Below, piece after piece: positions 5,055 through 59,325 of a DNA stretch of 64,000 nt (position 1 is its first letter; every line of letters starts with the position of its first letter). The notes under the pieces were generated by a model. It worked only from the letters and a program-made list of their open reading frames with translations, had not been told where the DNA came from and did not search any database. Origin of the DNA: Leptotrichia sp. oral taxon 847 (GTDB taxonomy: Bacteria; Fusobacteriota; Fusobacteriia; Fusobacteriales; Leptotrichiaceae). The translations under genes were made by a program, and so were the position numbers. Location: positions 1,116,001 through 1,180,000 of the forward strand of contig NZ_CP014231.1 in assembly GCF_001553645.1 (NCBI RefSeq), given 5' to 3'.

Positions 5055-6938
5055 CTATTTATTGACGTCATATTTTAGAAGTCTCAACGAATTTCCAACC
5101 ACTAAAATTGTTATCGAATTATGCAAAACCGAGCTATATATAGCCGGAAGCAATCCCGTTGCTCCCAATACAAGAGCAAAACTGTTTATTCCAATTGCCA
5201 TTGCAAAATTTTGCTTTATTATTTTTACAGTATTTTTAGCTAAACCTATTACACCTGGTATCAACAGCGGATCGTCAGAAGTTATTGTAACATCGGCAGC
5301 TTCCATTGCAACATCTGTTCTTGTGCTCCCAAGCGCTATTCCTACATTTGCATAAGAAAGAGCTGGAGCATCGTTTATTCCATCTCCGATCATAATGACT
5401 TTTGAGCCAATTGAGCGGAATTTTAAAATATCTTTAGCTTTGTCTTCTGGCAATAACTCAGATTCATATCTGTCCATCGACATTCTTGACGCAATAGTTT
5501 CAGCTTGCTGTCTTAAATCTCCTGTAAGCAGTACGATATCGTCTATTCCCTGATTTCTAAGCCGATTTATTGCTTTTTTTATATTTTCTCTCGGAGGATC
5601 AGAAACTCCAATGACACCGATTAAATTATCATTCTTAGCTACATAAATAACTATTTCACCACGATTTTGCATTCCTTTTACCGTATCAGCTGATATTTCC
5701 ACAGAAATGTCATTTTCTTTCATATACCTTAGACTTCCCACACGAATGATGTCCTTATTCACAAAAGTCTCAATTCCTCTTGCAACTTTAATCACATTTT
5801 CCTTGTGTCGCGGTATTTTTAACCCTCTATTCTTTATTTCATTCAAAATTGCACTTGCCAAAGGATGAGTCGAAGTTTCTTCAGCAGCCGCAGCTAACAC
5901 AAGCATTCTGTCATCTTTCATATTTTTAGCAAAAGTTCTTACAGTCTGAACTTTCGGTCTTCCTTCAGTAATTGTCCCCGTTTTATCAAATATAACCGTA
6001 TCAGATTTTGAAAGCTCTTCCAAATAGTTGCTTCCTTTAATCAAAATCCCATTTTTAGCAGCTGTATTAATTGAAGCGGAAAAAGCCGTTGCAGTTGACA
6101 ATCTTATTCCGCATGAATAGTCAATTACAAGCATACTTAACGCTTTTTGTAAATTTCTTGTTGAAAAATAAACTATTCCAGCAAGAAAAAAGTTTAGCGG
6201 AATTAATTGTGCAGAAAATGTATCAGCATAGGATTGAATATCCGCTTTGTTAAATGAAGCATCTTCAACCAATTTTATAATTCTTGAAGCAGTCCTGTCA
6301 TCACCTACTTTTTCAGCTCTCACAGTAATATTTCCATTTTTTAAAAGTGTCCCGGCAAAAACTTCCTGTCCAACTTCCTTTTTTACAGGCATATATTCTC
6401 CTGTAATCGCCGATTGGTCGATAACTGCACTACCTTTTTCGATTGTTCCGTCAACACTTATCTTTTCTCCAGTCTGAACAAGAATTAAATCCCCTTTTTT
6501 TATTTCTTCAATCGGAACTTTTTTAGTAATTTCATCATCATTGTCCGATTGCTTCCAAACATAACTCTCTCCAACACTCAACATATCTTTAATAACGCCA
6601 CGAGTCTTTTTCATTGTATAAACAGTCAAAAGCTCCGCAAATCTTTCCAAAATCATAATTGTCAAAGCTGTTCTTTCACTTCCTAAAGCAATGCTGCTGA
6701 TAATTGCTGTGGAACTCAACGTATCTGCGTTAGGACGTTTATTTTTAATCAACGAATAAATTCCATTTTTTAAAACAGGTACTGCTAGAAAAATTGTCGA
6801 TAAAGTTTTATAATTAAACAGTCGTCTAAATCCTGTAAATTTGGTTTTCGGACTTGGAATCAAAAGCAGTAATACTGCAGCTCCAATTCTTTTTAAAATT
6901 TTTTGCGGAGATTCTTCCTGCAATCGTCTTTCTATCAC
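5055..6938 (-). CDS. P1B-type metal-translocating ATPase with SCG membrane motif
   Basis: This 627-residue ATP-driven cation pump has all P-type landmarks: TGE (179-181) in the actuator domain, the phosphorylated aspartate in DKTGT (318-322), the P1B-specific STHPL (His358-Pro359) and GDGINDAPAL (518-527). Six hydrophobic segments precede the P domain and two follow it, as in P1B pumps. The membrane metal motif, normally CPC, CPH or SPC, reads DYSCGIRLSTATA (273-285), and the last helix carries LHNSITILVVGNSLRLL (605-621). It has no N-terminal HMA domain; separate HMA_2 proteins encoded on both sides may replace it. The start is GTG at 6938, overlapping the TGA of the upstream HMA gene, which suggests translational coupling. 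Substrate is not evident; the SCG motif argues against an ordinary Cu or Zn/Cd pump. Confidence 0.93.
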   Translation of the reverse strand: MIERRLQEESPQKILKRIGAAVLLLLIPSPKTKFTGFRRLFNYKTLSTIFLAVPVLKNGIYSLIKNKRPNADTLSSTAIISSIALGSERTALTIMILERFAELLTVYTMKKTRGVIKDMLSVGESYVWKQSDNDDEITKKVPIEEIKKGDLILVQTGEKISVDGTIEKGSAVIDQSAITGEYMPVKKEVGQEVFAGTLLKNGNITVRAEKVGDDRTASRIIKLVEDASFNKADIQSYADTFSAQLIPLNFFLAGIVYFSTRNLQKALSMLVIDYSCGIRLSTATAFSASINTAAKNGILIKGSNYLEELSKSDTVIFDKTGTITEGRPKVQTVRTFAKNMKDDRMLVLAAAAEETSTHPLASAILNEIKNRGLKIPRHKENVIKVARGIETFVNKDIIRVGSLRYMKENDISVEISADTVKGMQNRGEIVIYVAKNDNLIGVIGVSDPPRENIKKAINRLRNQGIDDIVLLTGDLRQQAETIASRMSMDRYESELLPEDKAKDILKFRSIGSKVIMIGDGINDAPALSYANVGIALGSTRTDVAMEAADVTITSDDPLLIPGVIGLAKNTVKIIKQNFAMAIGINSFALVLGATGLLPAIYSSVLHNSITILVVGNSLRLLKYDVNK

Positions 6939-7237
6939 ATATTTGTTTGATGTCTCTTTTTTTCATTTTTATAAATTTCAACAAGATGTGTACTTAATGT
7001 ATTTTGAACTAACGATACTAAATTTTCACCAGTCAATGTAAAATTATCAAAATAAATGAGAACAGTTCCTATAATATTGTTAATTTTAACACTTTTGACA
7101 TAATGAACATTTTGCAGCTGATTTATTATTTCTTCTTTATGAACCCCAAGATATTTTAATGCTCTCGATTTTATTCTGATTCTTCCACGAATTTCATGTA
7201 AAATTTCACAATCCAATAAATAATTTTTATTTAACAT
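6935..7237 (-). CDS. HMA_2-like small protein coupled to the ATPase
   Basis: This 100-residue soluble protein has the pattern CEILHEIRGRIRIK (residues 10-23), the H-x(3)-G-R-[IL]-R signature of HMA_2-type domains. It is followed by predicted helix-strand elements with VKSVKINNIIGTVLIYFD (48-65), the usual second half of the ferredoxin-like fold. CxxC is absent, so a classical thiolate metal site is lacking. The ATG follows AGAAAGGAA. Its stop codon overlaps the GTG start of the ATPase, so the two are almost certainly cotranslated. Position suggests that it serves as a detached N-terminal domain of the pump, but binding of any metal or other ligand is inference. Confidence 0.82.
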   Translation of the reverse strand: MLNKNYLLDCEILHEIRGRIRIKSRALKYLGVHKEEIINQLQNVHYVKSVKINNIIGTVLIYFDNFTLTGENLVSLVQNTLSTHLVEIYKNEKKRHQTNM

Positions 7238-57162: not shown

Positions 57163-58239
57163 TTATCTGTATCTGTATTTCATTCTGAATTCCACATCTT
57201 TTTTTAATTTTGACAAAATTCTTTTTCGCTCAATTTTAAAAACTTCTTTGTTATCACTCCCAATTTTACAATTAACATAACTTTTTATCATATCTTCCAT
57301 TTCTTTTTTAGCTTCGTTTCGTATTTCAAAGCTATATTCTTCGTTGTCGCCAATTTCTTTATTTTTTTCAATACAAAAGTATAAAAGTTCATTATAAATC
57401 TGCTGTGCCAAAACTTCCCGTGCCTTGTAATACGTCTTTTTATCCGTCTTTATAATTTTTAGTGCCTGTCTTTCCCCAATAAATGGCTTTTCCTGAATAA
57501 GCCCCATCATACTCTCAAAAATTTTATTTTTCTTTGCCATTTCGCACTCAAAACAAATTTTTTCATCGTTCATTGGCTTAAATAGACCTTTACACATTTT
57601 GCACTCCATATATCCAAGCTCTTTTAAACAAATTCTCCGCTTTTCCATCTTTATCAAAATGCTTTCCAATCTTTTTGAAAGATTTTTATCACGATTTGGA
57701 TTTTCAGTCATAGCTTTATGAATTTCGTCAACTACTCTTTGAGGTAAAATAACTTTATTTATATCAATTTCACCTTTTTTTTTAGATTTTTTAATAAAAA
57801 CTTTTTTTTTATTACTTCCCCATCTTCTTTTTGTAACTTCATGCTCTCTTAACATCTGTCCAACTTTTAGAGTCCCAAAATTTTCTTCATTTTCAATTAA
57901 TTCATCCAAAATTTCCCTTTTTATTTTATAGTTTACTTTATGAATCTCAATATTTCCTACAACATCTTCACCTAAAAATTTATTGATTCTGTCTTTTACC
58001 ACATTTTTATGTAGAAGAAATGTGTGATAAACCGTTGCATCTGTCAAATTTACTGTCAAAATTTTCTGAAACAGACTTTTTGGCTCAGACCTTTCAAAAA
58101 TTGGTCCCCCCACAAATATTTCCCAATTTTTTTTTATTTTTGACAAAATATAACTTTCATTTTTAAAAAATGACATTTTTTTCTTATCATACATATATTT
58201 TGCTAAATCTCTAAAGTTACTTACTTTCTTTTCCATCAT
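57163..58239 (-). CDS. DciA-like (DUF721) protein with extra zinc-finger domain
   Basis: Residues about 20-105 of this 358-residue protein fit the DUF721/DciA pattern: SKIKKNWEIFVGGPIFERSEPKSLF, then LTVNLTDATVYHTFLLHKNVVKDRINKFLG (seen in parts). DciA is the helicase loader/operator that helps DnaB in most bacteria without DnaC or DnaI. The protein is about twice the normal size; the extra C-terminal part has a C-x2-C...C-x2-C site (MECKMCKG and ICFECEM, 12 residues between pairs) and a helical end. The start is taken at ATG 58237-58239 behind AGGTG; a GTG at 58245 overlaps the ribosome site. It overlaps the end of recF. A place beside recF and dnaA supports a replication role. Confidence 0.78.
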   Translation of the reverse strand: MMEKKVSNFRDLAKYMYDKKKMSFFKNESYILSKIKKNWEIFVGGPIFERSEPKSLFQKILTVNLTDATVYHTFLLHKNVVKDRINKFLGEDVVGNIEIHKVNYKIKREILDELIENEENFGTLKVGQMLREHEVTKRRWGSNKKKVFIKKSKKKGEIDINKVILPQRVVDEIHKAMTENPNRDKNLSKRLESILIKMEKRRICLKELGYMECKMCKGLFKPMNDEKICFECEMAKKNKIFESMMGLIQEKPFIGERQALKIIKTDKKTYYKAREVLAQQIYNELLYFCIEKNKEIGDNEEYSFEIRNEAKKEMEDMIKSYVNCKIGSDNKEVFKIERKRILSKLKKDVEFRMKYRYR

Positions 58240-59325
58240 TTTCACCTACTTCAACTTTTCCAGCGTCAACAATAAATTTTTTACCACAAATTTTTAGGTC
58301 CTGTGTCGAAGTTATAAAACATTGAATTTTTTTATTTTTAAAATAATCCAAAATACTTTTTTTCCTAATTTCATCAAAATACGAAGAAATGTCGTCCATA
58401 ATAAAAATTGGATATTCTTTTTTTCTTTCATCAAAATGTCGATTTCTGCAATTTTTAGAGAAAAAATTATAGATTTCTTTTCTCCTTGAGAAGAGTAAGA
58501 TTTTGCATTTTTCCCATTTAACTCAAAGACAAAGTCATCTTTTTGCGGTCCTAATAAACTGTATCCCAAAAAACTTTCCCGCTCCATTTTTTTTAAGCAC
58601 TGCTCTTCAAACTTTTCTACCAATTCAGATTTACTTTTTTTTTCCACATCTCCCAGAAAACAATCGTACTTTAGCTGTAACTCGGCTTTTTCGTCAAACA
58701 GTTTCTGGTAATTGAGGTTTAGTAAAACTGATATGTTTTTTATAAATTCCCTTCTGTGAATTATAATATTTACGCCTTCATCAATAAATTTTTTATTATA
58801 AATTTTATAGATTTCTTCATAAGTTTTTTTTTCTTTTATCAGTTTATTCCGCACTTTTAATATTTTTTCAAAACTTACAATTGACTTCAAATAATCTTTT
58901 CTCGCCTGTGAAATTTCGTAATTAAAAAAACCCCTTCTAATATTTGGATTTCCCACAATTAGTTCAATATCTTCAGGAATAAAAGAAATTACATTTAAGT
59001 TTCCGATATAGTCTATATATTTATTTTTATTCTTATCTATGTAGTAATCTTTTTTTTCCTCGTTGACATCAATTGCAATCGTTTTATCTCCGTCATTTCT
59101 CTCAAATTTTCCAAAGACAATCATCCTATGAAAATTATACTTTCTCATTTCCTTAACTTTTTTTGTCCTAAAACTTTTTCCCGTTGCAACAAAATAAACA
59201 GCTTCAATAAGCGAAGTCTTTCCTTGTCCATTTTTCCCATAAATCAAGTTAAAATCTTTGCCAAATAACAATTTACTGTCTTTTAAGCAACGAAAATTAT
59301 TAAAATTTATCTGACTTAAATACAT
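58217..59325 (-). pseudogene. recF: RecF, interrupted by a frameshift at an A run (possible -1 frameshifting)
   Basis: RecF loads RecA at gaps. Residues 1-300 in the first frame are complete: Walker A GKNGQGKTS (30-38), VISFIPEDIELIVGNPNIRRGF (parts) and the ABC signature SSQGEKKSI (about 280-288). The frame then leaves family sequence after MKEKK and stops at 58312. In the -1 frame the protein goes on with EYPIFIMDDISSYFDEIRKKSILDYF (parts), which carries Walker B, to a stop at 58217; the total is about 370 residues, the family length. The break is at seven A followed by G (about 58420-58427), which reads A AAA AAG in phase, the dnaX-type slippery heptamer. Real mutation, sequencing error, slippage or programmed frameshifting all remain possible. 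Confidence 0.9.

Follow-up and report, generated by a model that had tools for sequence, protein, structure and literature searches.

The recF gene of Leptotrichia sp. oral taxon 847 is divided between two reading frames in the available genome sequence, at a run of seven A's forming an in-phase A_AAA_AAG heptamer. The division most probably results from an erroneous one-base loss at a homopolymer in the assembled sequence; the organism itself would have an ordinary, full-length recF. This reading is favored because recF is intact in relatives and because essential genes of the same assembly are broken likewise at A-runs. The original prediction had set a sequencing error level with other possibilities, including recoding of the kind known from dnaX; it is the alternative to which the evidence points.

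The recF Locus and Its Frame Break

The window, the whole 64,000-nucleotide stretch of DNA analyzed (G000:C1:1116001-1180000), is taken from a single-contig genome of 2,194,935 bp. The minus-strand genes found here are dnaA, a gene for a YaaA-like S4 protein, recF, a DciA-domain gene, a TPR gene, a 269-aa ORF, and mnmG. The zero-frame ORF of recF (Table 1) has homology to RecF up to approximately residue 303, followed by 34 unrelated residues. It matches positions 1-302 of the 339-position TIGR00611 model (261 bits vs. a cut-off of 172), and the overlapping -1 frame matches positions 299-339 of the same model. The matches of both frames confirm the earlier observation that the zero frame lacks Walker B and that the -1 frame supplies the segment containing it. 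Walker A (YGKNGQGKTS), in the N-terminal ATPase part, is present in the zero frame. The SQGEKK signature and Walker B (MDD) are both present, in two frames in this assembly and in a single frame in all relatives read.

The placement of the break at the in-phase heptamer likewise stood, the frame being lost within G-A7-G at 58417-58425. The minus-strand junction reads ATG AAA GAA AAA AAG AAT ATC, and the tract is given in the assembly as GAAAAAAAGAATATCC. A -1 slip gives ...KEKK-EYPIFIMDDISSYFDEIRKK... with a stop at 58217, and the RecF so restored has a length of about 369 aa vs. 362 in the nearest relatives. The -1 frame had been credited with exactly the 60 missing residues; the tail is as described, but 66 residues follow the junction, and the figure of 60 is obtained by starting at the Met of MDD. 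The tail shares about 90% identity with the C-terminus of RecF in a sister species and can therefore be taken as certainly part of recF. No second copy of recF was found in the genome. The stop codon with which recF ends in the sister species (GAATAAAAATGG) is missing here (window 58217-58245), GAA-AATGATGG standing in its place, and the -1 tail therefore overlaps the following DciA-domain gene. The G013 row, on the wrong strand, was left out of the DNA alignment of this end.

Table 1. Features of the recF locus and other genes broken at A-runs (plain coordinates are those of the window, kb values those of the genome)
Feature	Position	Strand	Details
recF zero-frame ORF	58312..59325	-	ATG at 59325; 337 aa
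recF -1 frame tail (EYPIFIMDD...ESK)	58217..58417	-	66 residues plus stop; RecF C-terminus with Walker B
Walker B segment PIFIMDD	58391..58411	-	-1 frame
A7 run where frame is lost	58418..58424	-	within G-A7-G
Heptamer A_AAA_AAG	58417-58423	-	in phase
Heavy-metal P-type ATPase	5055..7237	-	split into 6935-7237 and 5055-6938 at G-A7-G; A7 at 6957-6963
Glycosyltransferase	1204.6 kb		A8 to A7; DNA otherwise ~99% identical to G005; name from reading the sequence
LptD-like protein	1092.4 kb		1230 aa; name from reading the sequence, without family search
Ribosomal protein S1	1344.4 kb (~1344360)		A7 to A6 (A7 in sister genomes)
RadC	1294.4 kb		A7 to A6
Macrodomain protein	1439.7 kb		A6 to A5

recF in Related Genomes

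Of 60 relatives, 59 yielded a recF gene; the exception, without a recF match, is a draft genome that is 82% complete. All 13 genomes examined for the genus carry the gene (12 of 12 when the genome under study is set aside). The frame runs uninterrupted through the junction in every relative whose fetched locus was read, and no conserved frame break was found at these junctions. Most genus-mates have GAA AAA AAG GAA, which is the same in-phase heptamer in an intact gene, the nearest two species (G005 and G007) have GAA AAA AAT GAA, and G013 has GAA AAA AAA GAA (A8G). Judged from these junctions, the heptamer stems from conserved Glu-Lys-Lys/Asn-Glu coding, unconnected with any change of frame. 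Relatives with eight A's and an uninterrupted frame had been named as evidence that would overturn the original prediction; the frame is indeed uninterrupted, but eight A's occur only in G013. Most relatives also have seven A's, plus one extra base after the run (A7GG or A7TG). The deficit of the window is one base within or after the run rather than a matter of any given run length. A scan of genome contigs for other strains of the species, with one genome per species, matched other species only, and a scan of viral contigs for recF of other strains gave no match.

A phase-variable A-run, switching recF on and off, is hardly to be expected. The run is a homopolymer in a coding region, but it is short, and relatives either interrupt it or stay in frame (A7GG, A7TG). 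Nor is RecF a surface or restriction protein, these being the usual phase-variable classes.

Selection on the Tail

Over the 51 codons after the junction, comparison with G005 and G007 gave dN of 0.016-0.032 and dS of 0.52-1.07; the corresponding values for recF before the junction are 0.052 and 0.71-0.79. The -1 tail has thus evolved under strong constraint, no less than the part before the junction, and its low dN indicates that it was read as RecF during nearly all of the time since the species split. Such constraint is compatible with an error, with a mutation of very recent date, or with reading that is restored; it speaks against an old pseudogene.

The main rival to an assembly error is a real and recent one-base deletion inactivating recF, with RecF truncated before Walker B or made full-length in traces through accidental slippage. 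Such a deletion would leave the same trace, and if young would leave the tail still apparently constrained. A-runs double as mutation hot spots, and matches to recO and recR were found, which would confine the loss to a single part of the pathway. Accidental bypass of homopolymer indels, including one in an 8-A repeat, is documented from a drift experiment with M.HaeIII (PMC3812077); the likeness lies in an A-run indel partly bypassable by slippage, although for recF an indel in the cell is only hypothetical. A real deletion is nevertheless unlikely, since loss of recF was seen in none of the relatives read and since several independent recent losses would be required in one genome, including those in the genes for S1 and the LptD-like protein described below.

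Signals of Recoding

The recoding that was originally proposed would consist of programmed -1 frameshifting, or transcriptional slippage, at A AAA AAG, yielding full-length RecF together with a truncated form. The heptamer and its register are the same as in dnaX of Escherichia coli, where A_AAA_AAG directs programmed -1 frameshifting, and the -1 frame of recF does restore the protein. The E. coli system, however, has stimulators and a conserved site, whereas neither was found for recF and the break occurs in one genome only. In folding predictions without pseudoknots, RNA downstream of the heptamer was no more stable than shuffled sequences (MFE z = +0.29), and an AGGAG-like motif that might act as a Shine-Dalgarno-like stimulator upstream was not seen by eye in CGACATTTTGATGAAAG. 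Slippery heptamers without stimulators reach at most about 10 times the background of 0.055% in E. coli (PMC4066793). In genus-mates with the heptamer the frame is intact, and a slip there would cut the protein short. By itself the heptamer is unremarkable: of 411 intact genes of the sister genome G005, 63 contain A_AAA_AAG in phase, with 75 copies in all. Three breaks besides recF in the 544 kb sampled share the A_AAA_AAR register, but three of seven fall outside the slippery register, in which -1 re-pairing restores the frame. Similar one-base losses at other A-runs of the assembly, some non-slippery and some in essential genes, also tell against recoding, which is very improbable. Single, unclustered, BLAST-validated frameshifts were expected by Antonov et al. 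(GeneTack) to be sequencing errors and not genuine mutations (PMC3711429).

Other Broken Genes in the Assembly

Stretches of the genome totaling 544 kb were sampled for comparison with G005 (580 kb) and G007 (540 kb), and the rates given here derive from these. Seven genes that are open in a sister genome are broken in the 544 kb through one missing base at an A-run (Table 1). The names of genes other than the glycosyltransferase and the LptD-like protein are based on family search. In both G005 and G007 the P-type ATPase is encoded in a single open frame (726-727 aa), and the runs in recF and the ATPase gene would originally have been eight A's long. The only long S1 gene is split into frames of 245 and 372 aa at a non-slippery run, and a second full-length copy of S1 was not found in the genome. 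Excluded from the seven were several short flagged ORFs and a +1 difference in nicotinate phosphoribosyltransferase (G000:C1 ~1354540). The latter lies amid several substitutions, without a clear homopolymer.

Losses per coding run are 1 in 1564 at length six, 2 in 733 at seven, and 4 in 251 at eight, with approximately 1.6% of coding runs of eight affected. Overall, the orthologous coding sequence comes to about 376 kb and contains seven breaks. Of the four A8 losses, three lie in the slippery register vs. 30% expected (P ~0.09), a weak bias. The presence of all the runs as A's on the sense strand was considered as a sign of RNA slippage and proved uninformative, coding A-runs far outnumbering T-runs (P for 7/7 = 0.21). 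The idea that the assembly had shortened its A8 runs wholesale was also rejected, A8 and G-A8-G being as common as in sister genomes.

Some ten similar breaks occur in the closed genome G007 and few in G005; the only full glmS gene of G007 is split at an A-run. Homopolymer breaks at G007:C1 ~1830980 and 2029550 include those in glmS and, at G-A7-G, in a gene of 1038 aa, tentatively Mfd. Since the breaks vary by assembly and strike normally essential genes (S1, glmS), they point to the records and not to biology. Broken frames in housekeeping genes, with rescue by slippage, have been described in A+T-rich insect endosymbionts. It is highly unlikely that in this A-rich lineage, too, real deletions at A-runs are tolerated, with slippage of RNA polymerase or the ribosome restoring enough product of several housekeeping genes, recF included.

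Probable Origin of the Break as a Homopolymer Error

An assembly error at recF probably arose as follows. The two nearest species have AAT (Asn) as the codon that follows Glu-Lys; its replacement by AAA (Lys) in this lineage would have placed eight consecutive A's in front of GAA. Base calling or polishing of long reads, presumably those used for sequencing, would then have reported seven A's rather than eight, and the base would be missing from the sequence record while still present in the cell. Long-read assemblies do contain false deletions at homopolymers 2-8 bases long (PMC12007338). The breaks resemble such errors in their single-base losses at A-runs, their steep increase with the length of the run, and their scatter over housekeeping genes, but differ in a low rate, which suggests that the assembly was probably polished. 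Two observations run counter to an error: normal A8 counts, and hence no wholesale shortening, and the slippery register of three of the four A8 losses. Extrapolated from the sample, such breaks probably number some tens in the whole assembly.

Implications for A+T-rich Genomes

Where a frame break in an A+T-rich genome coincides with an in-phase A AAA AAG, caution is called for. The motif only weakly indicates recoding, being ordinary coding sequence for Glu-Lys-Lys that also lies where homopolymer errors occur. Breaks of this kind in the assembly would mislead annotation.
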